From positions 1 through 58,109 of the IMG/VR virus record IMGVR_UViG_3300027983_000019: a DNA stretch of 58,109 nucleotides; one strand, written 5' to 3'. The DNA is from a virus. Shown here piece by piece: positions 1 through 33,212 of this stretch. Positions within the stretch are counted from its first letter, which is position 1. Each line of letters opens with the position of its first letter. The notes below the pieces were generated by a model that saw nothing but the letters and a program-made list of their open reading frames with translations, was not told the origin of the DNA and made no database searches. The position numbers were made by a program, and so were the translations under genes.

Positions 1-294
1 TGGTTAATCGATAATTTTGGTGATTTGACACCGGTTGTTGATGGTGATAAAACATTTTATGTTGATGGTAATAAAAAAACAATTTTTTATTATTATCAGG
101 ATGAAGAAAATGGACTTTGTTACGTTAATAATGATGATATATGGTCAGTTTTGAAAACCCGTTTTGGGATTAACTATAATGAAATTCAGAAAGTTACAAC
201 CATGTGGTTGGATGAGGTATACGGATTAACAGGACTCACACCGCCAATGCGCGGCAACCAATATTCCAACCGTTGGATGAGGTATACGGAATAA
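1..294 (+). CDS. Gene-array family protein, copy A (5' end outside window)
   Basis: The frame is open from base 1, so the N-terminus lies upstream of the window. It is nearly identical to the copy at 452-799. The recognisable core runs through FGDLTPVV, a Tyr-rich FYYYQDEENGLCYV strand, IWSVLKTRFGIN and ends in TTMWLDEVYGLTGLTP. That last stretch is encoded by the first repeat of the array at 207-432. After the repeat the frame reads into spacer 1 and, because that spacer is 29 bases, enters repeat 2 out of phase and stops at 292-294. Function unknown; the family's other members carry an N-terminal peptide resembling a phage capsid-targeting sequence. Confidence 0.75.
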   Translation, partial: WLIDNFGDLTPVVDGDKTFYVDGNKKTIFYYYQDEENGLCYVNNDDIWSVLKTRFGINYNEIQKVTTMWLDEVYGLTGLTPPMRGNQYSNRWMRYTE

Positions 295-432
295 CGGGAC
301 ACACACCTGATTTGTCTTTTTTAACCTTTGGGTGACGTTGGATGAGGTATACGGATTAACAGGACTCAAACCATTAGGGAATTTATCTAAATCATAAATC
401 GTGTTGGATGAGGTATACGGATTAACGGGACT
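207..432 (+). repeat. CRISPR-like gene-terminal repeat-spacer array A
   Basis: 36-base repeats at 207-242, 272-307 and 337-372, plus a last copy whose first 30 bases (403-432) match before it diverges. Spacers at 243-271 (29), 308-336 (29) and 373-402 (30) are unrelated to each other. Repeats begin GTTGGATGAGGTATACGG and end in CACC or a one-base variant. Repeat 1 is also coding (WLDEVYGLTGLTP). The degenerate final repeat runs directly into the upstream region of the next gene copy at 452. Confidence 0.9.
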
Positions 433-451
433 AGATAAACTATTTATAATT

Positions 452-799
452 ATGAACATTAGAAAAATAATAAAAGAGGAAATTGATAACTTCGATTGGA
501 TTGACCAATCGGGTATTGAAACCCCACTATCATGGTTAATCGATAATTTTGGTGATTTGACACCGGTTGTTGATGGTGATAAAACATTTTATGTTGATGG
601 TAATAAAAAAACAATTTTTTATTATTATCAGGATGAAGAAAATGGACTTTGTTACGTTAGTAACGATGATATATGGTCAGTTTTGAAAACCCGTTTTGGG
701 ATTAACTATAATGAAATTCAGAAAGTTACAACCATGTGGTTGGATGAGGTATACGGAATAACGGGACTCACACCATTAAAAATTTATTCGTTGAAATGA
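452..799 (+). CDS. Gene-array family protein, copy B, with capsid-targeting-like N-terminus
   Basis: 115 residues. It starts at the ATG preceded by ACTATTTATAATT, the same upstream box seen before other family members; the frame is open further upstream only through the repeat. N-terminus MNIRKIIKEEIDNFDW contains I-K-E, which fits the (I/L)-x-E cleavage rule known for T4-type prohead proteases. The C-terminal WLDEVYGITGLTP is the coding copy of the array repeat, and the final residues (LKIYSLK) come from spacer 1. Function unknown; packaging into the capsid is inferred. Confidence 0.8.
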   Translation: MNIRKIIKEEIDNFDWIDQSGIETPLSWLIDNFGDLTPVVDGDKTFYVDGNKKTIFYYYQDEENGLCYVSNDDIWSVLKTRFGINYNEIQKVTTMWLDEVYGITGLTPLKIYSLK

Positions 800-840
800 T
801 TGCTGTTGGATGAGGTATACGGAATAACGGGACTAACACC
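739..840 (+). repeat. CRISPR-like gene-terminal repeat-spacer array B
   Basis: Repeats at 739-774 (coding, end of copy B) and 805-840, with a 30-base spacer at 775-804. The two repeats differ at one position near the 3' end (CTCACACC versus CTAACACC). The bases after 840 do not lead to another repeat. Confidence 0.85.
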
Positions 841-8299: not shown

Positions 8300-9514
8300 A
8301 TGATAATAAATAGTTTAATAGACTTAGATATCTACAAAATTACGATGATGCAACTAGCATATTTTAAACATCGTAATGTTGAAGTTGAATACAACTTTAA
8401 GAACAGGTCAAAAGATGTGAACCTTTTGGAGTACGTTAACATGGATGATTTAGTTAAGGAATTAGAACACGTAACCACGTTAAAAATGTCTGGTCGTGAA
8501 ATTGATACACTTAAAGAAACTGGATTATTTAAAGAGGAATTCTTGGATTTTTTAAGTAATCTAACACTACCTATGGTTAATGTAACAAAATCAATTCCAT
8601 TCAATACCTACGACATTAATGTTAGTGGTAATTGGTGTGATGTTATTTTGTGGGAGACATTAATACTATCCATCATTAATGAGTTATACCATAAGTCACA
8701 AATTAAAGATACATACCATATGGAAAGTACATACAATGAAGGTATGGATAGACTATATAGTAAGATTGAAAAGTTAAGGGGTGGTAAATATCGGTTTACT
8801 GAGTTCGGAACTAGACGAAGGTTTAGTAGAGAATGGCAGGAAATGGTTGTTAAAACACTTAAAAGGGAACACGATAACACCTTTGGTGGAATTGGTTTCC
8901 AAGGGACATCCAACGTTTATTTAGCAATGAAATTACACATACCATGTGTTGGGACATTCGCTCATGAAATGCCAATGGTTTATTCAGGTATTTACAATGA
9001 TGACCTAATCAGTTCACATAGAAAAATGTTAGATGACTGGTATGATTTTTATGGTAAGAGACTATCAATAGCTCTTACCGACACATATGGTAGTAAATTC
9101 TTTTTCGAGGACTTTACAGCAGAACAGGCAAGAGATTGGGATGGTTTCAGACAAGATAGTGGTGACCCATTTGTTTTCGGTGAAGAAGCTGAGGCTTTTT
9201 ATATCAGTAAAATGGTCGACCCAACAAATAAAGTTGTGGTATTCTCCGATGGACTTAATGTTGATAAAATTATAAAATTGGGTAATACGTTCAGGGGTAG
9301 AATTCAAACATTATTCGGATGGGGTACGAACTTATCAAATGATGTTGGATATCACACCTTATCAATGGTAGTTAAAGCGACGAAAGCTAATGGTCACGGA
9401 ACTGTTAAGTTGAGTGATAATCTGAATAAAGCTATTGGTACACCTGAAAACATAAAAAGGTTTACAGAAACCTTCGGATACACAAATAAAAATAAAGAAG
9501 AATTAATAAATTAA
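8300..9514 (+). CDS. pncB: Nicotinate phosphoribosyltransferase
   Basis: 404 residues, the usual PncB length. Signature segments in order: DIYKITMMQ near the start, FTEFGTRRRFSRE (about 170-185), GTSNVYLAM, GTFAHE, ALTDTYG, RQDSGDP, FSDGL and FGWGTNLSND. The family makes nicotinate mononucleotide from nicotinate and PRPP at the cost of ATP. The RRRFSRE and SDGL patterns favour nicotinate over nicotinamide as substrate. It heads a compact block with a NUDIX hydrolase and nadD (gaps of 2 and 4 bases). Confidence 0.92.
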   Translation: MIINSLIDLDIYKITMMQLAYFKHRNVEVEYNFKNRSKDVNLLEYVNMDDLVKELEHVTTLKMSGREIDTLKETGLFKEEFLDFLSNLTLPMVNVTKSIPFNTYDINVSGNWCDVILWETLILSIINELYHKSQIKDTYHMESTYNEGMDRLYSKIEKLRGGKYRFTEFGTRRRFSREWQEMVVKTLKREHDNTFGGIGFQGTSNVYLAMKLHIPCVGTFAHEMPMVYSGIYNDDLISSHRKMLDDWYDFYGKRLSIALTDTYGSKFFFEDFTAEQARDWDGFRQDSGDPFVFGEEAEAFYISKMVDPTNKVVVFSDGLNVDKIIKLGNTFRGRIQTLFGWGTNLSNDVGYHTLSMVVKATKANGHGTVKLSDNLNKAIGTPENIKRFTETFGYTNKNKEELIN

Positions 9515-11650: not shown

Positions 11651-11673
11651 AATTATAAATGGTTTACTTATCT

Positions 11674-11769
11674 AGTCCCTTTATTCCATACACCTCATCC
11701 AACAAATATTAAGTTTTGAAAATAATATCCGTAGGTATGAGTCCCGTTATTCCATATGCTTTATCCAAC
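11674..11769 (-). repeat. CRISPR-like gene-terminal array C1
   Basis: On the minus strand: coding repeat at 11769-11734, 30-base spacer at 11733-11704, terminal repeat matching over 30 bases at 11703-11674, then divergence into the next (relic) gene's upstream box. The terminal copy reads GTTGGATGAGGTGTATGG, closer to the consensus than the coding copy (GGATAAAGCATATGG). Confidence 0.85.
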
Positions 11770-22435: not shown

Positions 22436-22510
22436 GTCTCCCCCACGGGCCTCGAACCCGTAACCTTTCCGTTAAAAGCGGAAAGCCCGTCCACTTGAGC
22501 TTCGAAGAGA
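22436..22510 (-). tRNA. tRNA-Lys(TTT)
   Basis: 75 bases; acceptor TCTCTTC/GGGGAGA, anticodon arm TTTCCG-CTTTTAA-CGGAAA, T-arm ACGGGTTCGAGGCCCGT. Last tRNA of operon T1, separated from the rest by its own terminator. Confidence 0.9.
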
Positions 22511-22512
22511 TA

Positions 22513-22621
22513 AAAAAAGGGACTAAGTTATGATTGACTTAGTCCCTTTTAGGTGTGGTTGTAATTTTGTTACCTCCAATTAGTCAATCGATTTTCACGA
22601 CTAACCAATTATCGGTTAGTC
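22513..22621 (-). promoter_or_regulatory. Candidate Lys attenuator before tRNA-Lys
   Basis: Between a Lys-rich ORF (22625-22834) and tRNA-Lys lie four mutually exclusive segments on the minus strand: GACTAACC, GGTTAGTC, then GGGACTAAGT and ACTTAGTCCC followed by T7. Segments 1+2 and 3+4 form hairpins (3+4 is a terminator); 2 can instead pair with GACTAA in 3. This is the layout of a classical attenuator. Confidence 0.6.
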
Positions 22622-22624
22622 TTG

Positions 22625-22834
22625 TTACTGTTTATATTTTAATTTATTTACCATAATTTCTACTTTGTTTTTTCTTTTAATCCTTTTAATCTTTAAAGCT
22701 CTTTTATACTTCTCGTTGAACTCTTTACGGAATTCACTTTTAATAACTTCTTTTTCTGAGTTACTTATTTTTCGTCTTAGTTTTAGTTCTTTTAGTAAAT
22801 ACCTCGTACTAAGACCTAATACTATTGTTAACAT
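22625..22834 (-). CDS. Lys-rich small protein, possible leader for tRNA-Lys
   Basis: 69 residues with 16 Lys (for example RALKIKRIKRKNK). Hydrophobic start (LTIVLGLSTRYLLKEL), then a basic helix. Its position directly before the attenuator-like hairpins and tRNA-Lys suggests a sensing role like the four shorter leaders; it may also be an ordinary basic protein. Confidence 0.55.
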   Translation of the reverse strand: MLTIVLGLSTRYLLKELKLRRKISNSEKEVIKSEFRKEFNEKYKRALKIKRIKRKNKVEIMVNKLKYKQ

Positions 22835-22857
22835 TTTGTTTTACTCTTTTAATTAGA

Positions 22858-22929
22858 AGTCAGGGAGGGAATCGAACCCCCGTAAATCGGGTTGCAACCG
22901 ACCACCTATATGCCTCTCAGACACCTGAC
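22858..22929 (-). tRNA. tRNA-Cys(GCA)
   Basis: 72 bases; acceptor GTCAGG/CCTGAC with U73 (normal for Cys), anticodon arm GTCGG-TTGCAAC-CCGAT, T-arm GGGGGTTCGATTCCCTC. Confidence 0.88.
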
Positions 22930-22936
22930 CAAATAA

Positions 22937-23010
22937 AAAGATAGAGATTAACTATATGAGTGTTTTTCCAAATCCAAATTGATGTAACTCACATTACCGC
23001 TTCTATCTTT
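22937..23010 (-). ncRNA. Y RNA-like small RNA inside the tRNA operon
   Basis: 74 bases between tRNA-Ala and tRNA-Cys. Outer helix AAAGATAGA/TCTATCTTT, then GAAGCGGTAATGTGAGTTAC, with inner helix ATGTGAG/CTCATAT. The same GAAGCGGT and GAGTTACATC segments recur in the RNA just upstream of the Ro60 gene (44223-44300). They resemble the animal Y RNA Ro60-binding strand (GGUAGUGAGUUAUC). Likely released by processing of the flanking tRNAs. Confidence 0.65.
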
Positions 23011-23014
23011 TTTG

Positions 23015-23089
23015 TGGAAGTGATGGGACTCGAACCCACATAACCTTCTCGTTGCAAACGAGTTGCTCAGCCAATTGAGCTACACCCCC
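23015..23089 (-). tRNA. tRNA-Ala(TGC)
   Basis: 75 bases; acceptor GGGGGTG/CACTTCC, anticodon arm ACTCG-TTTGCAA-CGAGA, T-arm GTGGGTTCGAGTCCCAT. Confidence 0.92.
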
Positions 23090-23143
23090 TTAGTGGCGTA
23101 CCTTTGATTTAAGAGAGGGCACTACCGTTTCAACTCTCTATAG

Positions 23144-23214
23144 AGCGAAATGTGAGAATCTAACTCCTTCCTCTCCTTGGAAGGGAGATGCTTTAACATT
23201 AAGCTACATTTCGC
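23144..23214 (-). tRNA. tRNA-Gly(TCC)
   Basis: 71 bases; acceptor GCGAAAT/ATTTCGC, anticodon arm TCTCC-CTTCCAA-GGAGA; T-loop slightly unusual (TTAGATT). Confidence 0.9.
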
Positions 23215-23258
23215 GTTTACCATTTTTTTTCTGACCTGAATGATATAAACAGGTTTCG

Positions 23259-23331
23259 CGGAGATGATGGGAGTCGAACCCACTCCGACCTCGCAGACAA
23301 CGAGACATCTTAACCGTTTGACCTCATCTCC
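23259..23331 (-). tRNA. tRNA-Asp(GTC)
   Basis: 73 bases; acceptor GGAGATG/CATCTCC, G73, anticodon loop TTGTCTG, T-arm GTGGGTTCGACTCCCAT. Confidence 0.92.
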
Positions 23332-23389
23332 ATTGCGTCTTAGTTGGTGGTACCACCATGTAGAACCTAAAACAATTTTAACCTACTTT

Positions 23390-23503
23390 TTATTTTCTAC
23401 CTTTTGTCCACCCTTTGTAATCCAACAGGTTCCGAATTGGGAGTTTAATTCCCCCTTTCCCTTGACCTTTCATTGTGTTACTCATCTTTTGTTTCCTTCC
23501 CAT
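23390..23503 (-). CDS. Small basic protein inside tRNA operon
   Basis: 37 residues (starts MGRKQKMSNTMKG), strongly basic, between tRNA-Pro and tRNA-Asp. The ATG follows ATTATTTATATGT, the recurrent TATTTATA-type box, so it may be expressed separately from the tRNAs. Unrecognised. Confidence 0.5.
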   Translation of the reverse strand: MGRKQKMSNTMKGQGKGGIKLPIRNLLDYKGWTKGRK

Positions 23504-23540
23504 ACATATAAATAATATGGGAAGGTACAAAAGTTCCATG

Positions 23541-23613
23541 TCTAAGTGATAGGATTCGAACCTACGACCTGAGTGTCCCAAACACCCCGCTCTACCAACT
23601 GAGCCACACCTAG
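23541..23613 (-). tRNA. tRNA-Pro(TGG)
   Basis: 73 bases; acceptor CTAGGTG/CACTTAG, anticodon arm GGGTG-TTTGGGA-CACTC. Confidence 0.92.
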
Positions 23614-23662
23614 TTTTTGTACTTCCTTCTCTCATACGGAGTATAGTACTAACTAATACAGG

Positions 23663-23743
23663 TGGTGCCTGATGGACTCGAACCACTCCCCTAAGGACGA
23701 AATTTACAGTTTCGCTGTCGTATCCAAACGACTTTCAGTCACC
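23663..23743 (-). tRNA. tRNA-Tyr(GTA)
   Basis: 81 bases with the long variable arm of bacterial tRNA-Tyr; acceptor GGTGACT/AGGCACC, anticodon arm CGAAA-CTGTAAA-TTTCG. First tRNA of operon T1. Confidence 0.88.
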
Positions 23744-23756
23744 AATTGTTTTTAAC

Positions 23757-23980
23757 TAAAAAACCCTCGACTTGTTATGGTCGAGGGTTTTAGTTTTAAA
23801 TTAATATCTTTTAATATTTAACTTAATACCTAAGGTCTCGACAATTGTGGTTATAACCACAATCAGTTCCCGCTTTCGCGTCACTCGGTTTATATGTCGG
23901 TTTATTAGTTATCATTGTTTTTGTTTTTTCTTTGTTTATAAATATAGTACAAATGTAGTAAAAGTTATCTTGTAAGTCAA
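23757..23980 (-). promoter_or_regulatory. Attenuator T1: promoter, leader ORF, terminator before Tyr-Pro-Asp-Gly-Ala-Cys-Lys tRNAs
   Basis: Minus strand: TTGAC (23980-23976), 18 bases, TACATTTG (23957-23950); leader ORF 23915-23823; terminator arms AACCCTCGAC (23789-23780) and GTCGAGGGTT (23771-23762) with T6. A second GTCGAG at 23842-23837, inside the leader's last codons, can pair with the terminator's CTCGAC and block it. A perfect hairpin TTGTGGTTATAACCACAA also lies in the leader. Confidence 0.75.
23823..23915 (-). CDS. Leader peptide T1 (30 residues)
   Basis: Begins MITNKPTYKPSDAKAG. Of 30 residues, 17 are Lys (3), Pro (2), Tyr (3), Asp (3), Ala (2), Gly (2) or Cys (2): exactly the seven amino acids of the operon's tRNAs. 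Codons such as AAA, TAT, GAC/GAT, GGA and TGT are those the encoded tRNAs read. Inferred to sense their charging through ribosome stalling. Confidence 0.7.
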   Translation of the reverse strand: MITNKPTYKPSDAKAGTDCGYNHNCRDLRY

Positions 23981-24009
23981 GTATTTTTTTAATTTATTTT
24001 AATATTTCT

Positions 24010-24081
24010 TTTTTTCCTTTAATTTAGGTCTTAAACCCTCGTTTCTGATACAAATATAAATAACTTATTTTGATAAATCAA
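24010..24081 (-). promoter_or_regulatory. Second host-type promoter with short untranslated RNA
   Basis: Minus strand TTG (24081-24079), 20 bases, TATATTTG (24058-24051). The RNA would begin near AAACGAGGGTTTAAGACC; a similar start (CAACGAGGATTAAG) follows the promoter at 30908-30938. Both lie just before a tRNA-operon promoter. Confidence 0.5.
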
Positions 24082-24090
24082 GATAAATCT

Positions 24091-24393
24091 TTATTTTTTA
24101 CCACATTTTTTACATCCTATGTTATCTTTTTTAATTTTTGGTCTCTTATTAATCATTAACTTAATCTGTAATGTAGTTACCATAATAACAACCATGATAA
24201 ATGAATAGGATGATGTTGTTTCTTGAATACCACCACTAAATATATCCTTAACTGATTGAACTCCTGATGATATAACCCATATAACAATGGATATAATGGT
24301 GATAATTTGTGTTAAGTTTCCACCCATAAATCTGTTTAATTCTTGTTGACCACCCTTTTGGTTATCTTTTGGTTTTTCTATTTTTTTATCCAT
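24091..24393 (-). CDS. Membrane protein with terminal Cys pair
   Basis: 100 residues: two hydrophobic helices (IITIISIVIWVISSGV and SFIMVVIMVTTLQI) and C-terminal CKKCGKK. Charged N-terminus. Unknown. Confidence 0.6.
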   Translation of the reverse strand: MDKKIEKPKDNQKGGQQELNRFMGGNLTQIITIISIVIWVISSGVQSVKDIFSGGIQETTSSYSFIMVVIMVTTLQIKLMINKRPKIKKDNIGCKKCGKK

Positions 24394-24400
24394 AATTTTA

Positions 24401-24910
24401 TTAAAATTGTCTAAAATGGTCGATATTAAAAGTAATTGGTGTTATCCCGTCATCTTCATCCATTCCTATTGAAATTGGTTGACAACCGATTAAATGATAA
24501 CTTTCTAATACCCCACCATTTCGTGAGTATAGTTGTAATGTCATATTTTTTTTTAAATTGTTCGTTCTGGAAAAGTTAAACCACTCAAATAACATATTAG
24601 CTTCACCCAAATCCAGAAACTCGACATAATGTTCACATTGTGTTCGTATTGGCATTTGGTTATAATTATGTAAATCTACACCTAACGAACCCATTCTTGG
24701 TTGATTTGTAGATACATGAAAATCTTGATGTCCATCACCTGATGGTATTTGTAAAATCCATCGAACACCATTTAATGGTATAGTTTCTAATAAATGATTT
24801 TGACTTCTTATTTCACTTATAGGTTGAGTAGTTAGTGGCCACACTTTTATAGGTGATTTCTTAACAAATGTTATATTTTCTTTTTTATTACTAGCTATAA
24901 ACAATTCCAT
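24401..24910 (-). CDS. T4 gp19-like tail-tube family protein
   Basis: 169 residues. ETIPLNGVRWILQIPSG, the middle FEWFNFSR and C-terminal LIGCQPISIGMDEDDGITPI…FNIDHFRQF follow the tail-tube pattern (…G..P..IG..D.d…I.F.f..F). May be the tail tube or a related baseplate/tube-initiator protein. A second member is at 48143-48706. Confidence 0.55.
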   Translation of the reverse strand: MELFIASNKKENITFVKKSPIKVWPLTTQPISEIRSQNHLLETIPLNGVRWILQIPSGDGHQDFHVSTNQPRMGSLGVDLHNYNQMPIRTQCEHYVEFLDLGEANMLFEWFNFSRTNNLKKNMTLQLYSRNGGVLESYHLIGCQPISIGMDEDDGITPITFNIDHFRQF

Positions 24911-24945
24911 GGCTAAAATATAGAATAACCAATAGACTTGTAAAC

Positions 24946-25407
24946 TTAATAAACAAACTTTAATGTTAATTTATCCCACTCATCATCTTTTTTTTCTTGG
25001 TTACATTTATAACAACACACTTTTAGATTACTAAATTCTTTGGCTAACTCTGGATGTTTGGCTTTTGGGAGGAAGTGGTCAGCGGTAGCCATATCATGAT
25101 GACTTTTAACCTCATCTTTTTTCCAATGGTATAATCTTAATTCTTTTTTACCACAATATTCACAATGTAATTCACCATGGGTCTTTAACATATATAGTAA
25201 AAACTTGGTGTTAAATAACATCTGTTTAAATTTATCGGCTTTCTTTGGGTTTTTTGGCATTGGGTCTATTTCCTTATAGGAATCTATTAATAATAGATAG
25301 TCAGCATATGTACCTTGTAAAGGTTGACCAAAAATTATGTCTTGTACCTTTACATGATTTGTTATTTTTCTAACTATTTTTCTTAACATTACATCTAATA
25401 TAATCAT
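24946..25407 (-). CDS. HNH endonuclease
   Basis: 153 residues. CEYCGKKELRLYHWKKD, MATADHFLPKAKHPELA and NLKVCCYKCNQEKKDDEW give two zinc CxxC pairs and the DH…N…N HNH core. The first ATG is used; an internal ATG six codons later is equally possible. Confidence 0.75.
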   Translation of the reverse strand: MIILDVMLRKIVRKITNHVKVQDIIFGQPLQGTYADYLLLIDSYKEIDPMPKNPKKADKFKQMLFNTKFLLYMLKTHGELHCEYCGKKELRLYHWKKDEVKSHHDMATADHFLPKAKHPELAKEFSNLKVCCYKCNQEKKDDEWDKLTLKFVY

Positions 25408-25470
25408 TTTTTTAGATAAATTAAACTTTAACTATTCAATGTTATGATATATTTATAGAAAAACAAAAAT

Positions 25471-25812
25471 ATGAACATTAGAAAAATAATAAAGGAGGAG
25501 ATTGATAACTTTGATTGGTTTGATGAGGGTGAAACTCCATTATCGCGGTTAATTGATAATTTTGGTGATTTGACACCGGTTGTTAGGGGTAATCTAACAT
25601 TCTATGCTGATAATAATAATAATAATAAAACAATTTTTTATTATTATCAGGATGAAGAAAATGGACTTTGTTATATTAATTATGATGAAATATGGTCAGT
25701 TTTGGAGTCTCGTTTTGGGATTAACTATAAGGAAATTCAGGTGGTTATAACCAAGTGGTTGGATGAGGTATACGGATTAACGGGACTCACACCTTCAAAA
25801 TCGATTTGGTGA
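25471..25812 (+). CDS. Gene-array family protein, copy D1
   Basis: 113 residues. MNIRKIIKEEIDNFDWFDEG, FGDLTPVVRG, FYYYQDEENGLCYINYDEIW, C-terminal TKWLDEVYGLTGLTP (coding repeat) and spacer tail SKSIW. Upstream ATATATTTATAG. Lies between two minus-strand blocks of tRNA-operon DNA. Confidence 0.8.
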   Translation: MNIRKIIKEEIDNFDWFDEGETPLSRLIDNFGDLTPVVRGNLTFYADNNNNNKTIFYYYQDEENGLCYINYDEIWSVLESRFGINYKEIQVVITKWLDEVYGLTGLTPSKSIW

Positions 25813-25904
25813 AATAGTTGAAGGTTGGATGAGGTATACGGAATAACGGGACTTACACCGTACTCTGGAGAATCTTCTGTTTACTTGGCGTTGGATGAGG
25901 TATA
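25758..25904 (+). repeat. CRISPR-like gene-terminal array D1
   Basis: Repeats 25758-25793 (coding) and 25824-25859, then a repeat truncated after 15 bases (25890-25904). Spacers 25794-25823 and 25860-25889 are both exactly 30 bases and unrelated. The second spacer is open in all 10 codons (YSGESSVYLA). Confidence 0.9.
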
Positions 25905-25932
25905 AAAATAATATGTTAAACTGAAAATAATT

Positions 25933-26280
25933 ATGAACATCAAAAAAATAATAAAAGAAGAAATTAATAATTTCGATTGGTTTGATGAGGGTGAAACACC
26001 ACTATCGTGGTTAATCGATAATTTTGGGGATTTAAAACCAGTTGTTGATGGTAATAAAATCACTTATGTTAATGATAATAATAAAATATTCTTTTATTAT
26101 TATCAGGATAAAAAAAATGGATATTGTTATATTAAATATGGTGAAATATGGTCAGTTTTGGATTCCCGTTTTGGAATTAACGATACTGAAATTATGGAAG
26201 TTACAACCACATGGTTGGATGAGGTCTACGGAATAACGGGACTCATACCCATAAGTTACGGTTCCCATTGCAGCATCTAG
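25933..26280 (+). CDS. Gene-array family protein, copy D2
   Basis: 115 residues. MNIKKIIKEEINNFDWFDEG start (I-K-E), FYYYQDKKNGYCYIKYGEIW, C-terminal TTTWLDEVYGITGLIP from the repeat, tail ISYGSHCSI from spacer 1. The stop TAG is completed by the first base of repeat 2. Confidence 0.8.
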   Translation: MNIKKIIKEEINNFDWFDEGETPLSWLIDNFGDLKPVVDGNKITYVNDNNKIFFYYYQDKKNGYCYIKYGEIWSVLDSRFGINDTEIMEVTTTWLDEVYGITGLIPISYGSHCSI

Positions 26281-26381
26281 TTGGATGAGGTATACGGAAT
26301 AACTGGACTCACACCTTTAAGTTGGTGGTGATACAACTTCTTCATGTTGGATGAGGTCTACGGAATAGTGGGGTGTACACC
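26214..26381 (+). repeat. CRISPR-like gene-terminal array D2
   Basis: Repeats 26214-26249 (coding), 26280-26315 and 26346-26381 (last one diverged in its second half: GGAATAGTGGGGTGTACACC). Spacers 26250-26279 and 26316-26345, 30 bases each. The array ends 38 bases before the 3' end of tRNA-Arg on the other strand. Confidence 0.9.
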
Positions 26382-26418
26382 ATTAAAATCAAATAAGTAT
26401 TAAGTTATTTTTAATTAG

Positions 26419-26492
26419 TGTACCAGGAGGGATTCGAACCCCCGACCTTATGGTCCGTAACCATATGCTCTATCCAACTGAGCTACAAGTAC
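26419..26492 (-). tRNA. tRNA-Arg(ACG)
   Basis: 74 bases; acceptor GTACTTG/CTGGTAC (one T-T), anticodon arm ATGG-TTACGGA-CCAT, T-arm GGGGGTTCGAATCCCTC. Last tRNA of operon T2. Confidence 0.88.
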
Positions 26493-26536
26493 ATTGTCAT
26501 AATCGTTAGTGATTAACTCACAACATTATGTTATAG

Positions 26537-26608
26537 TAGACATGGAGGGAGTTGAGCCCTCTTAACTAAGGTATAAGCTTAGCGTAATAACCCTTATACG
26601 ACATGTCC
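26537..26608 (-). tRNA. tRNA-Ile(TAT)
   Basis: 72 bases; acceptor GGACATG/CATGTCT, anticodon arm CTAAG-CTTATAC-CTTAG. Reads AUA directly, without needing lysidine. Confidence 0.85.
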
Positions 26609-26613
26609 ATTGG

Positions 26614-26701
26614 TAGAGGGTATGGGATTTGAACCCATGCGTCGTTTAACCGACCTAATAACTTTCCAAGTTATCCTCTTAAGCCACTTGAGTAACCCTC
26701 T
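26614..26701 (-). tRNA. tRNA-Ser(GGA)
   Basis: 88 bases, class II; acceptor AGAGGGT/ACCCTCT, anticodon arm ATAAC-TTGGAAA-GTTAT, variable arm GGTCGGTTAAACGACG. Confidence 0.88.
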
Positions 26702-26756
26702 ATTTTATTTTCTTCCCATACATATAAATATGTGGGAAGTACAAAAACGACCATGG

Positions 26757-26846
26757 CGGAAGACAAGGGGATTGAACCCTCACTACCCATTAAGGGTAGA
26801 CTTGTTTAGCAGACAAGCTCAACGAACCAATATTTGACTATCTTCC
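26757..26846 (-). tRNA. tRNA-Ser(GCT)
   Basis: 90 bases, class II; acceptor GGAAGAT/GTCTTCC, G73, anticodon arm CTTGT-CTGCTAA-ACAAG. Its 5' end overlaps the stop region of the adjacent homing-endonuclease gene. Confidence 0.88.
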
Positions 26847-27755
26847 ATTAGTGTGTAGATTATTTATGTACTTAATAATTTTATTAGTTTCTTCTATTAT
26901 AAATTTTTTATGACTTGTTAAATCTTTAACTATATATAATTTTATACCTAATATCTCACATTCTTTTATTTTCTGTTTATCTTTTTCTTTTGTTTTAATT
27001 AAAGAACCATCACCTCTAATGTCTTTGTAGTGGTATATACCATTCCACTCAATACCAAAATTCAATGAGGGTATATAAACATCTAATTCACGATTACCCA
27101 TTAGTGTTAACCTATCATTAAATAAAATAGTTAAATTAGGGAAATAAGTGTTTAGTTCATTTTCTAAATATATTTCAGGTTTAGACCTAAGACCATTTAT
27201 TAATTTATTATTTATTTTATTTCTACACACACCACCACAATATTTTCTTCTATTTAATTGTGTTTTAGTTAACCATAATTTTTTATCACAAACCGGACAA
27301 GTAAACTCAACCTTTGGTTTTGTTAATTTTTCACTTATTTTTCGTTTTATTTCGTTACACTTTTTATCATCAAATCTATCACACAGTTTAACACCTTTTA
27401 AATTGACACTAACTGAGTTTCTTATATTAATTAACCCTTGCTTTGATAGTGTGTACACACTCAATACTCTATCTCTATTAGTTGACGAAGCCGAACAACT
27501 GTGTCCACAATATTTATTACCCCTCACTTCGTATGGTATTACCTCAGAACAATATTCACACATTTTTGGTTCAATGTAATACTTTTCCTTATTCTTTCGA
27601 AGTGTTGTTGTTGTATGTTCACGACCTAATCTCACCATTTTCTCATACGATTTACCTTTATTTGGGTTTTTATCACAATTGACTACATGTGACCCAGCGT
27701 GTTTAGGCGTTTTAATTTCCACCTCACCACAGAATTTACATTCATATTTACACAT
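26838..27755 (-). CDS. Homing endonuclease, Vsr/EDxHD-like
   Basis: 305 residues. Four zinc-finger-like CxxC segments (CKFCGE, CEYCSE, CPVCDKK and CGGVC) precede a C-terminal nuclease: SKPEIYLENEL, NRELDVYIPSLNFGIEWNG and YHYKD then KIKECEILGIKLYIV. This is the order of Vsr-like (EDxHD) homing endonucleases such as I-Bth0305I. It splits operon T2 between tRNA-Ile(GAT) and tRNA-Ser(GCT); own upstream box GCATATTTATATA. Confidence 0.75.
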   Translation of the reverse strand: MCKYECKFCGEVEIKTPKHAGSHVVNCDKNPNKGKSYEKMVRLGREHTTTTLRKNKEKYYIEPKMCEYCSEVIPYEVRGNKYCGHSCSASSTNRDRVLSVYTLSKQGLINIRNSVSVNLKGVKLCDRFDDKKCNEIKRKISEKLTKPKVEFTCPVCDKKLWLTKTQLNRRKYCGGVCRNKINNKLINGLRSKPEIYLENELNTYFPNLTILFNDRLTLMGNRELDVYIPSLNFGIEWNGIYHYKDIRGDGSLIKTKEKDKQKIKECEILGIKLYIVKDLTSHKKFIIEETNKIIKYINNLHTNGR

Positions 27756-27875
27756 ATTACTTTATATATAAATATGCACGTGACACCCAAAACGAATAGC
27801 ACAAACGGTTTTAATCGAAAAAACTCGTGAAGCTTTTGGAGAGCCCACCGACACCAAGCCTGTCGTTTGTATTTG

Positions 27876-27948
27876 TTGTGTCGTAGGGAGTCGAACCCTA
27901 TTATTCTATCTTATCAGGATAGCCACTAAACCGTCCATGCCCGACACA
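27876..27948 (-). tRNA. tRNA-Ile(GAT)
   Basis: 73 bases; acceptor TGTGTCG/CGACACA, anticodon arm CTATC-CTGATAA-GATAG, T-arm TAGGGTTCGACTCCCTA. Confidence 0.9.
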
Positions 27949-27954
27949 ATGTTT

Positions 27955-28027
27955 GCTCTCCGTGGTGGTACTGACCCACCTTCCTCTGATTAACAATCAG
28001 GAGCTTCACTTTAAAGCTTACGAAGAG
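27955..28027 (-). tRNA. tRNA-Asn(GTT), first copy
   Basis: 73 bases; acceptor CTCTTCG/CGGAGAG, anticodon loop TTGTTAA in a CTGA/TCAG stem, C73. The 27-43 pair is mismatched; identity less certain than its neighbour. Confidence 0.7.
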
Positions 28028-28064
28028 TATTTCAATTATAAGGTTGGTGACTTATAACGTATTG

Positions 28065-28136
28065 CGGACTGGGAGAATAACGATATCTCGGCCTTCACCT
28101 TAACAGGGTGTTGCTCTTCCTCTGAGCTACCAATCC
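28065..28136 (-). tRNA. tRNA-Asn(GTT), second copy
   Basis: 72 bases; acceptor GGATTGG/CCAGTCC, G73, anticodon arm ACACC-CTGTTAA-GGTGA. Atypical T-loop (GATATCGTTATTC) shared with tRNA-His. Confidence 0.8.
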
Positions 28137-28149
28137 TTTTTTACTTTAG

Positions 28150-28237
28150 CGGAGAGCGGAGGAACCGACCCCCGTACCCTTTCGCGTAGCCTAGGTTTCA
28201 AATCTAGTCGCATCTCCATGACACTGCTTCACTCTCC
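28150..28237 (-). tRNA. tRNA-Ser(TGA)
   Basis: 88 bases, class II; acceptor GGAGAGT/GCTCTCC, G73, anticodon loop TTTGAAA, variable arm TACGCGAAAGGGTA. Confidence 0.85.
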
Positions 28238-28246
28238 ATTATTTTT

Positions 28247-28320
28247 GGGTGTATGAGGAATTACGATATCCCGACCTTCGATTCCACAAACCGACACTCT
28301 TCCTCTGAGCTACACACACC
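28247..28320 (-). tRNA. tRNA-His(GTG)
   Basis: 74 bases; acceptor GGTGTGT/ATACACC with C73 as expected for His, anticodon arm TCGGT-TTGTGGA-ATCGA. First tRNA of operon T2. Confidence 0.88.
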
Positions 28321-28324
28321 ATTT

Positions 28325-28495
28325 TTAATCCAGTTCAACAAAAATTATCATCTTACCTTTTTCTTTTTTAAACTTTAACTCCCCATGGTATCCACCTTGG
28401 TCAGCCTTTTCTCTGTGTTCATCCAAGATTTTATCAAAGTTATCTTGGAACTCCTTTATTTTTACCTCACCTATTTTTCTAACTAAATCACCCAT
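28325..28495 (-). CDS. Small hypothetical protein between attenuator T2 and tRNA-His
   Basis: 56 residues from ATG at 28495 (MGDLVRKIGEVKIKEFQDNF), Lys/Glu-rich helix then YHGELKFKKEKGKMIIFVELD. An upstream in-frame start would lie in the terminator. Co-transcribed with T2 only on readthrough. Confidence 0.6.
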   Translation of the reverse strand: MGDLVRKIGEVKIKEFQDNFDKILDEHREKADQGGYHGELKFKKEKGKMIIFVELD

Positions 28496-28504
28496 AATGT
28501 CTAT

Positions 28505-28711
28505 GTAAAAAAAAATCCCCACCTCGGTTTGAGATGGGGATTAAGTAGTTATTTTATTAACTATTAATTACACACATCTCGTCATCTTCGTTATCCACGA
28601 ATTACGACTGATATTAATATTATGTATGTTATTATTAGTTTTCATTTTCTTTTGTTTTTTCCTTGTTTATAAATATACTACAAATATAGTAAAAGTTTAC
28701 CGTTGTGTCAA
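28505..28711 (-). promoter_or_regulatory. Attenuator T2: promoter, leader ORF, terminator before His-Ser-Asn-Ile-Arg tRNAs
   Basis: Minus strand: TTGAC (28711-28707), 18 bases, TATATTTG (28688-28681); leader ORF 28645-28568; terminator ATCCCCATCTC / GAGGTGGGGAT with T9. GAGATG at 28580-28575 (in the leader) can pair with CATCTC of the terminator arm. An upstream hairpin TTCGT-GGATA-ACGAA can sequester that region. Confidence 0.75.
28568..28645 (-). CDS. Leader peptide T2 (25 residues)
   Basis: Begins MKTNNNIHNINISRNSW. Asn 6, Ile 4, Ser 2, Arg 2, His 1: 15 of 25 residues match the operon's tRNAs (His, Ser, Asn, Ile, Arg). Codons include AAT/AAC, ATA plus ATT/ATC (both Ile tRNAs), AGT and TCG (two of the three Ser tRNAs), CGT (Arg ACG) and CAT. 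Confidence 0.7.
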   Translation of the reverse strand: MKTNNNIHNINISRNSWITKMTRCV

Positions 28712-28730
28712 GTGTTTTTTAATTTATTTT

Positions 28731-29216
28731 CTATTTTTTTTTGTTTTCGGTCTTTACACCCTCTTTAAGTGAGTTTATTGTGTCTAATAAACTTGATGCT
28801 TCCTCATAATTTTCTTCATAAACAGCTTCATCTAATTTATTTTGTAATAAATTGATAATAATTTCGGGTGCCAATTCTTGGTCCACCATCTTATTTCTAT
28901 TTTCATTATTGTAGAATTCCTCAGGTGACATTGATATGGTATATATACTAACACTAGTATTATCACCATCTGTTGTTCCACTATATGAGTTATAACCATC
29001 AACATTAAGACCAGTTGCATCTAACCCAAATGGGTTGTTATTCATACCCCACATTAATTTCATTATCTCTTCATAACGATTTTCATAACCACCTATAATA
29101 CCTAAAAACTTTTTCTTAAAGTCGTCATCAGCCATTCTTTCTCTGAATAGTTTATTTAATTTTTCCCTATCAAAGTTTCCAAACTCATCAAATTCATCAT
29201 CATTAAATTCATTCAT
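28731..29216 (-). CDS. Acidic protein with UVR-like motif
   Basis: 161 residues; acidic N-terminus (FNDDEFDEFGNFDREKL), and near the C-terminus LLQNKLDEAVYEENYEEASS followed by LLDTINSLKE, which fits the UVR helical-hairpin motif of UvrB/C and Clp adaptor proteins. Partner unknown. Confidence 0.55.
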   Translation of the reverse strand: MNEFNDDEFDEFGNFDREKLNKLFRERMADDDFKKKFLGIIGGYENRYEEIMKLMWGMNNNPFGLDATGLNVDGYNSYSGTTDGDNTSVSIYTISMSPEEFYNNENRNKMVDQELAPEIIINLLQNKLDEAVYEENYEEASSLLDTINSLKEGVKTENKKK

Positions 29217-29289
29217 AATATATTTCTTTTTATTTAAATGTCGTTCATTTTTATTGTAAAGTCAAGTAAAGAAAAATGGATAAACTTAT

Positions 29290-29529
29290 TTATATAAATC
29301 GTCTTTTTTTAAATAATTTAATTTTTTTATCCTTAACTTTGTAACCTCGTTTTCTTAATTTTTTCATGGATTTATTCATTCTACCATCCTCTCGATTAAC
29401 AACCTTTTTCCTGGTCCCTAATGATTGATTATGTGACTGACCACTATTATAGTTTGGTCCTTTAATTGTACAGCAAGATGATAATATTAGTATAAATAAA
29501 CACACTAATATTTTAAATATTGTTTTCAT
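29290..29529 (-). CDS. Small basic lipoprotein
   Basis: 79 residues; signal FKILVCLFILILSSCC with lipobox LSSC, then a very basic tail (KLRKRGYKVKDKKIKLFKKR). Confidence 0.65.
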   Translation of the reverse strand: MKTIFKILVCLFILILSSCCTIKGPNYNSGQSHNQSLGTRKKVVNREDGRMNKSMKKLRKRGYKVKDKKIKLFKKRRFI

Positions 29530-29576
29530 TTATTTGTGTTAATTTAAGTTTAATATAAATATACACAAAAGTAAAT

Positions 29577-29838
29577 AAGGAAGGAATCGAACCCCCACAA
29601 CCTACTTTATTCGGTTATACCTTTCCGTGGTGACTCGGTTTTATATTATAGTATTATTGTTTTCTTGTACAAATTTTAAGGACCACCTGATTAAGGTAGG
29701 TTATTATCTAACATGGGTATCAACCCGTCCCACGCCATAAACCACTACACCACTCACTTTATATATCTCGGATGCGTTAATTAATGGACTTTTGATTCAC
29801 CATTTCGAAGTACGCGTCTACCATTCCGCCACTCATTT
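29577..29838 (-). tRNA. Anomalous split or decayed tRNA-Leu region
   Basis: A Leu-type 5' half (AAATGAG then GTGGCGGAATGGTAGACGCG) at 29838 and a complementary 3' end (T-arm GGGGGTTCGATTCCTTC then CTTATTT) at 29577 are separated by about 180 bases. In between is another tRNA-like 5' half (AAGTGAGTGGTGTAGTGG), whose acceptor can also pair with the same 3' end. Either two decayed tRNAs or a tRNA with an insertion. Confidence 0.4.
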
Positions 29839-29843
29839 ATTTG

Positions 29844-29912
29844 TAATTAAGGTTGGACTCGAACCAACGACCTCCCCTAAAGGATTGCTCTAACCAACTG
29901 AGCTACTTAATC
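29844..29912 (-). tRNA. tRNA, probably Pro(AGG) (anticodon tentative)
   Basis: 69 bases; acceptor GATTAAG/CTTAATT, canonical D-arm AGCTCAGTTGGTTAGAGC, T-arm GTTGGTTCGAGTCCAAC. Best anticodon loop TTAGGGG gives AGG; an alternative frame would give TAG, but there is no long variable arm for Leu. Confidence 0.6.
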
Positions 29913-30160
29913 CACCCTCTCATAACCGACTTGAGTAAGAACCTATTGAGGGAACACTAATATGATGTTTTCGGTTTTCACAGTATCTCCATGGGACTAA
30001 CCCATTGTGATTACCAAACCTCCACTAGTGGTTTTCTACTAGAAATCCGAACTGGTATCTTTGACTTTACTAATAATGGTTAGACACTAACGAGTAGGTA
30101 CTAAACACTTTCGAATTGGGGTAACTAAGATACAAAGTTACCATACACATCGATGATTTG
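29913..30160 (-). other. Unassigned 248-base stretch in tRNA operon
   Basis: No ORF of note. Contains a 7-bp hairpin GGTAACT/AGTTACC and CCCCAATTCGAAAGTG, which resembles a T-arm, so it may hold a decayed tRNA. Nothing else recognised. Confidence 0.3.
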
Positions 30161-30230
30161 TGTTGGGTGGGGGTGTCGAACCCTCATCTCCCGCCTGTGG
30201 CGAGTGTCCTAGCCATTAAACGAACCCAAC
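30161..30230 (-). tRNA. tRNA with unresolved anticodon
   Basis: 70 bases; acceptor GTTGGGT/ACCCAAC perfect, D-arm region TCGTTTAATGGCTAGGACA, T-arm GAGGGTTCGACACCCCC. The anticodon arm CTCGCCACAGGCGGGAG has no U33, so the identity is not assignable. Confidence 0.6.
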
Positions 30231-30301
30231 AACCAACAATATCAAACTGTAATTATCAATTATTGGTTCTAAAAACAACTATTACAGTAATTGTTTTATG
30301 G

Positions 30302-30417
30302 TACGGGTGGATGGACTCGAACCACCAAAAACTACTTTTCGGATTACTCTTACTTTTCGTCCACCTCGTCATGGGTTACCCCAAACAAGGCGTGTTTACC
30401 AATTTCACCACACCCGC
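30302..30417 (-). tRNA. Oversized tRNA-Leu-like (116 bases)
   Basis: Acceptor GCGGGTG/CACCCGT, D-arm TGGTGAAATTGGTAAACACG, stem CCTTG/CGAGG enclosing a 17-base loop that itself folds as TGGG-GTAA-CCCA. A long variable region (CGAAAAGTAAGAGTAATC…) is shared with the next two Leu genes. Confidence 0.65.
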
Positions 30418-30439
30418 TTATGTAGTTATTTAACATTGG

Positions 30440-30545
30440 TACGGAAGAAGGGACTCGAACCCCTAAAAACTACTTTTCAGATTACTCTTACTTTTTCGTT
30501 CACTACCCTAAAGAATAGCGTGTTTACCAATTTCACCACTTCCGT
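30440..30545 (-). tRNA. Oversized tRNA-Leu, probably TAG (106 bases)
   Basis: Acceptor ACGGAAG/CTTCCGT, Leu D-arm, anticodon arm CTATT-CTTTAG-GGTAG, variable region of about 38 bases (GAACGAAAAAGTAAGAGTAA…) before T-arm AGGGGTTCGAGTCCCTT. Confidence 0.7.
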
Positions 30546-30661
30546 AGTTAAGTCTATACCCCCTCATCCCTCTTCTAATCTTGGGGGTTCCACCTTGTGG
30601 GGTGGATGTGTTTTCATCAAATTCCGTTCAGGTAACGTATTGATTACTATTATTGACTTAG

Positions 30662-30767
30662 TACATGAGGATGGAATCGAACCATCAAGAACTACTTTTC
30701 AGATTACTCTTACTTTTTCGTTCACTACCCTAAAGAATAGCGTGTTTACCAATTTCACCACTCATGT
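30662..30767 (-). tRNA. Oversized tRNA-Leu, probably TAG (106 bases)
   Basis: Different acceptor (ACATGAG/CTCATGT) but the same D-arm, anticodon arm and expanded variable region as 30440-30545. First tRNA after the promoter at 30801. Confidence 0.7.
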
Positions 30768-30800
30768 ATATTATCTAATTTTGTTGTCTCTATTGTTATA

Positions 30801-30831
30801 CAAACCTAATCATTTTTTATTAGTTTGACAA
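30801..30831 (-). promoter_or_regulatory. Host-type promoter for the Leu tRNA operon
   Basis: Minus strand TTGTC, 18 bases, TAGGTTTG. Unlike T1-T4 there is no leader ORF or terminator before the first tRNA. Confidence 0.7.
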
Positions 30832-30849
30832 GTATTTTTGTGTTTTTTT

Positions 30850-30938
30850 TTATTTTATTTTAAAAAGGTTATCCAACCATTGTAACACTTAATCCTCGTT
30901 GTTGGTACAACTATATGTATAATATATTAAGTAGACAA
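30850..30938 (-). ncRNA. Candidate short RNA downstream of rnpA
   Basis: TTG (30938-30936), 20 bases, TATAGTTG, then an RNA of about 55 bases (CAACAACGAGGATTAAGTG…) ending in GGTTGGATAACC plus T5. Shares the CAACGAGG.TTAAG start with the RNA at 24045. Confidence 0.4.
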
Positions 30939-31214
30939 GTACTTTTTAAAATTTAATTTATTTGGTATTTTATCACCGATATAAATTAACGCCACTGAGT
31001 TAGTTGGAACAATCCCTTTTAGTTCCTCTCTCATCATCCTCTTTATTCTGTTTCTATCAACCGCTCTCTTAAACTTCTTAGAACTAACGGTAAATAAGTA
31101 ACCAGGTGTACCATCTGTAACAATTTTAATTAATACATTGTCCACCACTTTGTTTTTAGCTTCCACACTGAATAACCTATCAATATCTTTATTCTGTTTT
31201 AAACTATACTTCAT
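30927..31214 (-). CDS. rnpA: RNase P protein component
   Basis: 95 residues, slightly short for RnpA (about 110-120). KFKRAVDRNRIKRMMREELK is the signature RNR helix; upstream YLFTVSSKKFKR matches the central beta strand and the N-terminus SLKQNKDIDRLF matches the family start. Binds RNase P RNA (19792-20058) and tRNA precursors. A phage carrying both subunits is remarkable. Confidence 0.88.
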   Translation of the reverse strand: MKYSLKQNKDIDRLFSVEAKNKVVDNVLIKIVTDGTPGYLFTVSSKKFKRAVDRNRIKRMMREELKGIVPTNSVALIYIGDKIPNKLNFKKYLST

Positions 31215-31244
31215 GGTACAAATGTAAGTTAAATTTATTTAATA

Positions 31245-31275
31245 AACAAAAAAAAACCACCCTAAGGTGGTTTAT
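31245..31275 (-). terminator. Terminator upstream of rnpA
   Basis: AAACCACCTTAGGGTGGTTTTTTTTT on the minus strand, closing the unit that contains the T9SS-domain fragment. Confidence 0.8.
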
Positions 31276-31384
31276 CGGGTAAAATCAAAGGCCTTTTGTC
31301 TACCAAAACTATGTTTCATTTCTCATTGTTGTCAATGCTGTACCCAGACGGTATCACCAAACGAAAGAGGAGTTACACAATATC

Positions 31385-31780
31385 ATTCTTTTAATATCAT
31401 TCTTTTTGTTGAAATTCTATCACCATCAACAATTAATTGATAATAATACTCACCCCTACCAAGACCGTTATAGGTAACAGTTATTTTTGATTCTTGGTCA
31501 TCTAATCTAAAAGCAAAAACTTGATATGTAATATCCTTTATAAGGACTATATATGACACACTGTTCTCAGGTATTAAATACTCAATAATTGTATACCCAT
31601 TTGTTGCTGGGTTTGGGTAATTTTGACCAAGTGTTGGTATTATGGTAACTGTTGAATCCCCAATTAATGTTTCATCAACATGTGTAACTGTATTAACAAA
31701 GGTTTCTAAAATAATTGTGTCAGTCTTTGAACAACCATTAACATCTGTAACGGTTACATGATATTCACCCTTTTTTTATT
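31385..31780 (-). pseudogene. 3' fragment of a type IX secretion substrate (C-terminal sorting domain)
   Basis: About 130 codons open on the minus strand, no start codon. Reads GEYHVTVTDVNGCSKTDTI, a Bacteroidota surface-repeat end, then LGQNYPNPATNGYTIIEYLI, GRGEYYYQLIVDGDRIS and a final TKRMILKE, the T9SS C-terminal sorting domain. The frame begins at TAA-AAA-AAG next to tRNA-Met. Host-derived or phage gene remnant. Confidence 0.75.
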
Positions 31781-31796
31781 GTTAATATATATTTAG

Positions 31797-31872
31797 TAGC
31801 GGGAGCCAGAGTCGAACTGACGAATGTATGGCTTATGAGACCATAGAGGAATACCACACCTTCTACCCCACG
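31797..31872 (-). tRNA. tRNA-Met(CAT), possible initiator
   Basis: 76 bases; anticodon arm ATGGT-CTCATAA-GCCAT, T-arm GTCAGTTCGACTCTGGC. Acceptor CGTGGGG/TCCCGCT leaves a C1-U72 mismatch, a feature of initiator tRNAs, but the anticodon stem lacks the initiator GGG/CCC pairs. Confidence 0.8.
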
Positions 31873-31877
31873 TTTTG

Positions 31878-32017
31878 TGTACTTCTCAGGATTTGAACCT
31901 GAACGTGTGTACCTTAATTTAATCTACCCATAGTGTGTGGGTGGTTTGTAATCGTGTCCACACAACACTCAAACATTTACCATTAAACTAGGTGCGTCTA
32001 CATTCCGCCACAAGTAC
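31878..32017 (-). tRNA. Oversized tRNA-Leu-like (140 bases)
   Basis: Acceptor GTACTTG/GAAGTAC, Leu D-arm TGGCGGAATGTAGACGC, T-arm TTCAGGTTCAAATCCTGA. About 55 extra bases between D-arm and T-arm, including ACCCA-CACACTA-TGGGT. Anticodon not settled; TAA occurs in a loop-like TTTAATG. Confidence 0.55.
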
Positions 32018-32039
32018 TTTAATAAGTATATACTAAACT

Positions 32040-32228
32040 TTATTGTTTGTCAAGCCGTTTCCTGACATCTTCGTTTAATTTATCATTACCTTTAATAATG
32101 TGTCTTGGCTCAAACGGACAATGTCGACACCCGTTGGAACAACATTGACCCTTATAAGCCAAGAACTTTTCTGTGAGTATAATACACCCATCTTCTTTGT
32201 AAAAATTTTCTTCGTTAGACATAAACAT
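32040..32228 (-). CDS. DUF5522-like Cys-rich protein
   Basis: 62 residues: FYKEDGCIILTEKFLAYKGQ then CCSNGCRHCPFEPRH. The CC.NGC.HCP motif is the DUF5522 hallmark. Overlaps the stop of the HNH gene upstream. Confidence 0.75.
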   Translation of the reverse strand: MFMSNEENFYKEDGCIILTEKFLAYKGQCCSNGCRHCPFEPRHIIKGNDKLNEDVRKRLDKQ

Positions 32229-32778: not shown

Positions 32779-32822
32779 AACATTTTAATTATAAATAGTC
32801 TAAACTATTAAGTCAAGTGAAG

Positions 32823-32922
32823 TGACCCATAAAGGAATCGAACCTTATATTTGACAGGATAAAACCCATCATTACCGAAGTATGTTATATATCATTTGCA
32901 CAAATGTTTCAATACACGGGTC
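32823..32922 (-). tRNA. tRNA-like element (100 bases, class II-like)
   Basis: Acceptor GACCCGT/ATGGGTC and T-arm TAAGGTTCGATTCCTTT are good; a variable-arm hairpin GGGTTTTATCC is visible. D and anticodon arms are not resolvable. Follows tRNA-Leu(TAG). Confidence 0.45.
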
Positions 32923-32927
32923 AAAAG

Positions 32928-33008
32928 TACCTTCGGTGGGAGTCGAACCCACACGCCATAAGACAATAAATCCTAAATCTATCGTGTCTACCATTCCACC
33001 ACGAAGGC
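32928..33008 (-). tRNA. tRNA-Leu(TAG)
   Basis: 81 bases, normal class II; acceptor GCCTTCG/CGAAGGT, anticodon arm ATAGA-TTTAGGA-TTTAT. Confidence 0.9.
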
Positions 33009-33038
33009 ATTTATTAGTCTTTCCTAATAGTCTTAAAG

Positions 33039-33122: not shown

Positions 33123-33136
33123 ATGTGTAATTATTG

Positions 33137-33207: not shown

Positions 33208-33212
33208 GTTTG

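Follow-up and report, generated by a model that had tools for sequence, protein, structure and literature searches.

The 3′ end of a small, fast-evolving phage gene doubles as the first repeat of an array of direct repeats and unique spacers. On balance, we lean towards the view that this array grows by a polar insertion resembling CRISPR adaptation, and that it thereby remodels the C-terminus of a protein that is perhaps packaged in the virion.

Gene Copies and Arrays in the Window

The window, i.e., the whole stretch of DNA that was analyzed, is a linear virus record of 58,109 bases carrying one small gene in six copies (Table 1). The 3′ end of each copy is GTTGGATGAGGTATACGGAATAACGGGACTCACACC or a variant of it, encoding (W)LDEVYGITGLTP, and this 36-base segment at the gene end (LDEVYGITGLTP) is repeat 1 of the array. 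Most copies are followed by one to three extra repeats, separated by unique spacers of 29–30 bases, with unit lengths of 65, 65 and 66 bases in the first array and 66 in all others. The last repeat of array 1, at 403, is degenerate and extends into the upstream region of the next gene. The plus-strand repeats amount to 11 forward matches, versus 0 in a reversed-pattern control, and are thus not due to chance. The gene body is real coding sequence, as indicated by a median dN/dS of 0.46 among window-type copies and of 0.28 in a larger group of relatives. Of the 23 tRNAs of the window, 21 are densely clustered at 22436–34552, among small genes and two of the array-bearing copies.

Table 1. Copies of the gene and associated arrays in the window.
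Feature	Positions	Strand	Description
Gene copy cut by contig start	1–294	+	Tail PMRGNQYSNRWMRYTE; frame shifted by 29-base first spacer
Array 1	207–438	+	Repeats at 207, 272, 337, 403; spacers of 29, 29, 30 bases
Complete gene copy, 115 aa	452–799	+	Tail LKIYSLK; ORF MNIRKIIKEEIDNFDW...WLDEVYGITGLTPLKIYSLK; stop at 797–799
Array 2, repeat 1	739–774	+	Last conserved codons of the gene
Array 2, spacer 1	775–804	+	Codes tail LKIYSLK and stop
Array 2, repeat 2	805–840	+	Terminal, untranslated
Gene copy, 113 aa	25471–25812	+	Tail SKSIW
Array 3	25758–25905	+	Repeats at 25758, 25824, truncated 25890; two 30-base spacers
Gene copy, 115 aa	25933–26280	+	Tail ISYGSHCSI; stop codon spans spacer-repeat junction
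Array 4	26214–26381	+	Repeats at 26214, 26280, 26346 (terminal, degenerate); two 30-base spacers
Gene copy, 122 aa	12065–12433	-	Single diverged repeat; tail HPTLWVGQLREFVYWED
Gene copy, 113 aa	11709–12050	-	Starts MDIRKIIKEE; tail TDIIFKT
Array 6	11668–11769	-	Repeat 11769–11734, spacer 11733–11704, terminal repeat 11703–11668

In the window copies, repeat 1 is translated throughout and the stop codon lies within spacer 1 or shortly beyond it, which agrees with the original prediction that the frame of each copy runs through the repeat into the first spacer, and which excludes translation ending before the repeat. The four tails that it named (LKIYSLK, TDIIFKT, SKSIW and ISYGSHCSI) are all present in the window, and the longer ones to which it alluded correspond to PMRGNQYSNRWMRYTE, in the copy ending at 294, and HPTLWVGQLREFVYWED, in the minus-strand copy at 12433–12065.

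Distribution of the Architecture among Related Phages

The same architecture is found at about 80 related loci. Protein searches of IMG/VR retrieved relatives from 81% down to about 32% identity, with essentially the same organization in each: the last 12 codons of the gene constitute the repeat, with the consensus GTTGGATGAGGTCTACAATTTAAGGGGAGTCACACC, and up to five further copies follow at spacings of mostly 65–69 bases. The arrays were found again in independent metagenomes. As in CRISPR arrays, the 36-base repeats of the window family are direct and near-identical, and the spacers are unique and of similar length (28–33 bases, most commonly 30). No relative of the window gene was found in bacterial genomes or by tblastn on 50,697 phage records, and searches of Pfam, PHROGs, NCBIfam, PADLOC and PDB gave no family for either protein. 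A weak match to CroV588 (E 0.018) disappeared when another family member was used as query.

The phages carrying these arrays constitute a group of large uncultured phages that are probably related to T4. The C-terminal motif persists in a few paralogues without repeats (L030 at 3022, L035 at 7547), so the repeat appears to be derived from ordinary coding sequence. In L035 (4079–7622), L095 and L206, paralogues of the array gene form tandem clusters in which the terminal repeat breaks after about 23 bases and abuts the upstream region of the next copy, a junction that is recurrent.

Polar Turnover at Orthologous Loci

Arrays were assigned to the same orthologous locus when the sequences flanking them on either side, beyond the gene, were homologous. 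At locus A, L050, L233 and L234 have spacers 2–5 in common, whereas spacer 1 of L050 differs (31 bases, versus 33 in L233/L234); the other arrays of this locus share no spacers. Since L233 and L234 were recovered from separate metagenomes, the spacer-1 variant is not an assembly error. At locus B, L208 and L223 have the last spacer in common and the first different. Loci C and E retain conserved flanks around entirely different spacers, and 1–5 unrelated spacers lie between homologous flanks in the remaining comparisons at loci A, B, C and E. Shared spacers were thus seen in only two orthologous comparisons within the window family, and in both the arrays agree in distal spacers but not in spacer 1, indicating that the array grows at its gene-proximal end. 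This is the polarity expected at the leader end of a CRISPR array, with the gene standing where the leader would be, and an age gradient in translated arrays (see below) has the same direction. The tails consequently differ between orthologous loci with conserved flanks, as new units enter beside the gene, and the claim of a replaceable, strain-variable tail is borne out; invariance of the tails across strains is excluded.

According to the model that we favor, each event would add about 66 bases, consisting of a 36-base copy of the repeat and 28–33 bases of new sequence. The unit would enter where the conserved domain meets the first repeat, displacing older units downstream. Because the conserved coding sequence of the gene ends with repeat 1, the C-terminal tail would be swapped at each insertion. 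In the window family the insert often breaks the frame, so that of the spacers only the first is translated, the older units persisting as untranslated DNA. In the sister families described below the frame is kept and the whole array is translated. The most likely use of such a process would be to diversify the C-terminus of a fast-evolving phage protein.

Reading Frame and Protein Tails in the Window Family

It had been proposed that repeat and spacer together measure 66 bases, so that a new unit would replace the tail while keeping the frame. This does not hold for the window family: units in the window measure 65 or 66 bases, 20 of 57 first spacings are divisible by three (35%, the chance level), and so are 40 of 98 spacings overall. 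The unit length is therefore not fixed at 66, and insertion does not generally preserve the frame. Of 53 first spacers, 15 contain a stop in the frame of the gene, which is not distinct from the 20/53 and 25/53 seen in the other two frames. In many arrays the frame ends within repeat 2, the other two frames of which soon stop (after VG and WMRSTI, respectively). Given that neither frame nor stop position leaves a signal, the tail of the window family may be tolerated rather than selected, and could be a by-product. The idea that the array diversifies a protein end thus survives in the turnover of tails and in the translated arrays of the sister families, but finds no selection on frame or stops in the window family itself.

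The loss of frame also bears on a proposal in which the host drives the process. Host Cas1-Cas2 would confuse the gene end with a leader-repeat junction and insert prespacers during infection, and these insertions would be tolerated at a dispensable gene end. Polar insertion, duplication of the repeat and a ruler-like spacer length would all follow from such activity, and no phage integrase was identified in the searched records. The phenomenon is, however, too systematic for an accident, as it affects most loci of the family in several metagenomes and multiple copies per phage, with sister arrays kept in frame, and the spacers do not match the phages themselves. We regard this origin as distinctly unlikely.

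Translated Arrays in Sister Gene Families

Scanning relatives for a 66-base periodicity uncovered two sister gene families, again in these phages, in which the reading frame stays open through the entire array. Their layouts are a domain followed by (VEDTIQNGVKHT + 10 residues)n and a domain followed by (VEETLNCKVLST + 10 residues)n, i.e., a unit pattern of (12 conserved + 10 variable residues)n. A dedicated scan retrieved 150 related stretches, 80 of which were kept. The 53 distinct translated arrays comprise 476 units, all in frame, and the spacer is exactly 10 residues long in 367 of the 476. The frame-preserving argument, rejected for the window family, holds here, and these two families, translated from end to end, lend strong support to a use of the arrays at the protein level.

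The translated arrays are graded along their length. Mismatches of the repeats to the array consensus rise from 2.9/36 near the domain to 9.2/36 at the far end, spacers that are not 10 residues long increase from 8% to 54% in the same direction, and spacers common to different phage groups sit more distally from the domain (p = 0.006). The oldest, C-terminal units (L195, L197, L237–L316), e.g., EDGDWLDGDER, IGTLRRT and HDDCSNNIARVEGI, are conserved across distant phages, while the proximal ones are not.

It could be argued that these are ordinary repeat-protein genes, in which units are amplified and shuffled by recombination and diverge by point mutation, the window family being a decayed form. 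The sister arrays do encode 22-residue repeats, duplicated units occur in L113 and L256, a copy of the linker lies inside L280, and in one translated group of alleles (L256–L264) units have also been gained and lost internally, indicating that recombination within arrays contributes. Nevertheless, spacers are mutually unrelated while adjacent repeats are identical in DNA, the age gradient has a single young end, and the spacers of the window family are unique and 28–33 bases long regardless of frame, which together render this account very improbable.

The relationship between the window and sister families is suggested by several similarities. The sister sequence GTG GAA GAG ACC CTA AAT TGT AAG GTA CTC resembles the window-type TTG GAA GAG ACC TAT AAT TTG AAG GGT CTA of L027, and the end of the window gene (IW..L..FG.....I..WLDEVYNL) aligns with FFNMLKTLFSMPDEVFNDVISEWVEDTLNCK of the sister type. 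Profile comparison gives weak homology (E about 0.002, probability 13–16%).

Repeat Sequence, CRISPR Likeness and Insertion Machinery

Repeat 1 is more conserved than the gene that contains it. Orthologs mostly show 0–1 differences in its 36 bases, as compared to about 9–15% in the gene body, with neighboring genes and trailers differing less than the gene body. Moreover, rare codons are almost fixed in repeat 1 (GAG 39/39, AGG 34/35, TAC 38/42). Near-identity and fixed rare codons together suggest a constraint at the DNA level or homogenization.

An alternative reading is that the locus is a CRISPR-like guide array in disguise, producing crRNA-like RNAs or decoys for the VI-B or II-C systems of Bacteroidota hosts, with the gene end acting as leader plus first repeat and the changed tail as a by-product. 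Such an array would be expected to have 36-base repeats, unique spacers of 28–33 bases, polar growth and a degenerate terminal repeat, as seen here, and the untranslated repeats remain nearly identical. In addition, most window-family repeats resemble, in register, the VI-B-type repeats of Bergeyella, Riemerella and Capnocytophaga at 21–25 of 36 positions (23–25 for the commoner forms, 19–20 for the window's own repeat); few non-array 36-mers score as high as 23 against VI-B-type repeats in over 1 Mb of phage sequence. There is also a precedent that counts in favor of this proposal, as VI-B arrays of F. columnare are extended in trans by the Cas1-Cas2 of a II-C system (PMC8092290).

On the other hand, the repeats fold no better than their shuffles (z from -0.9 to +1.8, versus -3.3 and -2.0 for VI-B repeats), so that the structured repeat RNA of CRISPR arrays is not reflected in fold scores, which lie near z of 0, and Rfam gave no match. 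The similarity to VI-B repeats is notable but, since the repeats do not fold, it is taken as a lead; it also falls on different strands in different families. One genome scan with a VI-B-type pattern returned no array bearing the window repeat. Cas1 was found in none of 43 records, most of which are fragments, and Cas2 in none of 21, again mostly fragments but including contigs of 187–304 kb; reverse transcriptase (PF00078) was likewise found in none of 17 records. The inserting enzyme may come from the host or be of a kind not recognized in these searches. Together with the openness of the sister arrays for translation and the lack of convincing protospacers (see below), these findings make a guide array an unlikely, though not negligible, explanation.

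Nature and Source of the Spacers

The trinucleotide signature of the spacers (0.067 ± 0.008) equals that of the phages (0.068), with values of 0.034 for a small Bacteroidota set and 0 for shuffled sequence, and this k-mer agreement with the phages' own DNA rules out random, untemplated spacers. The spacers show neither strand bias nor coding bias. No source was found in the phages themselves or their relatives, no convincing protospacer was present in about 3 Mb of sequence, and exact IMG/VR scans with two first spacers gave matches only in arrays. Matches to mobile elements were weak (3 of 142, versus 0.67 expected). Two apparent protospacers, in a small zinc-finger-like phage ORF of L087 and in a dnaK-like ORF of L111, were within the range of shuffled sequences, and matches of translated spacers to local ORFs did not exceed those of reversed peptides.

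The Encoded Protein and Other Genes of the Window

The array genes, like several other genes of these phages, start with a short (I/L)xE segment. This N-terminal motif occurs in 11 of 75 window proteins and in 27 of 335 proteins of a 296-kb relative, against a background of 0.7%. A T4-type S77 prohead protease was found in 3 of 17 records, all relatives, and none in the window. The internal proteins of T4 provide a precedent for phage products that are packaged and injected, and by analogy the product of the array gene may also be packaged in the virion and injected. In most pairs compared, the gene body evolves faster than its neighbors, which would fit a role in conflict with hosts.

An N-terminal segment of the form M.I.KIIKEEI..FDW or MKKLIKKILKESDFDW is common to otherwise unrelated proteins of the window (20096, 21318, 21705, 40635–41504, 56226 and others), including a phage lysozyme (41524–42405). 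The segment includes (I/L)xE, and it may act as a capsid-targeting sequence of the T4 kind. The window also encodes a TROVE/Ro60-like RNA-binding protein (42468–44105, minus strand; Pfam TROVE 3e-5; PHROG 850, 7e-39). A Mom-like DNA modification protein (39025–39933) and a DNA methyltransferase (54064–54816, minus strand) suggest that the phage DNA is modified. A nicotinate phosphoribosyltransferase (8300–9514) and an M42 aminopeptidase (34811–35878) are unusual phage cargo.

Relation to Known Systems and Significance

Diversity-generating retroelements achieve targeted diversification of protein ends through adenine mutagenesis and a reverse transcriptase. The arrays described here would also diversify a protein end in a targeted way, but through insertion of new units, and reverse transcriptase was not found in the 17 records mentioned above. 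In Rhs and CdiA proteins, C-terminal tips are exchanged and orphan tips are displaced downstream. Here, too, a variable and replaceable C-terminus follows a conserved junction, and older ends lie displaced downstream, but the tips measure only 5–20 residues, form a ruler-like array and are accompanied by no immunity genes that we could see.

The likeness to CRISPR arrays and viral CRISPR mini-arrays (PMC11656645) extends to direct 36-base repeats, unique spacers of about 30 bases, leader-end polarity, a degenerate terminal repeat and hypervariability between close relatives. Unlike in those arrays (PMC11656645), repeat 1 is coding here, sister arrays are fully translated, repeats lack a fold, Cas1 and Cas2 were not found in the searched records, protospacers were not confirmed and no identity to host repeats was seen. 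RNA anti-CRISPRs, or solitary repeat units, likewise place CRISPR-repeat-like sequence on a phage, but here multiple repeats lie within genes and are separated by spacers that undergo turnover (PMC10651486). A survey of RNA anti-CRISPRs did not find type VI examples (PMC10651486).

A more specific proposal, which we put forward only tentatively, is that segments of about 30 bases are captured and installed at the 3′ ends of phage genes by an adaptation-like machine, which would be either an unrecognized phage product or a host system put to use by the phage. Translation of the captured DNA would then generate protein diversity. To our knowledge, polar insertion of unique segments with duplication of the repeat is known only from CRISPR adaptation, the product of which is RNA. 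Here the same pattern lies within phage genes, and its product in the sister families is protein. Confirmation of the insertion step would add a further route to protein diversification to those of retroelement mutagenesis and cassette exchange. It would also make CRISPR arrays and repeat proteins less sharply distinct, and the arrays would constitute a natural record of the DNA met by these phages.
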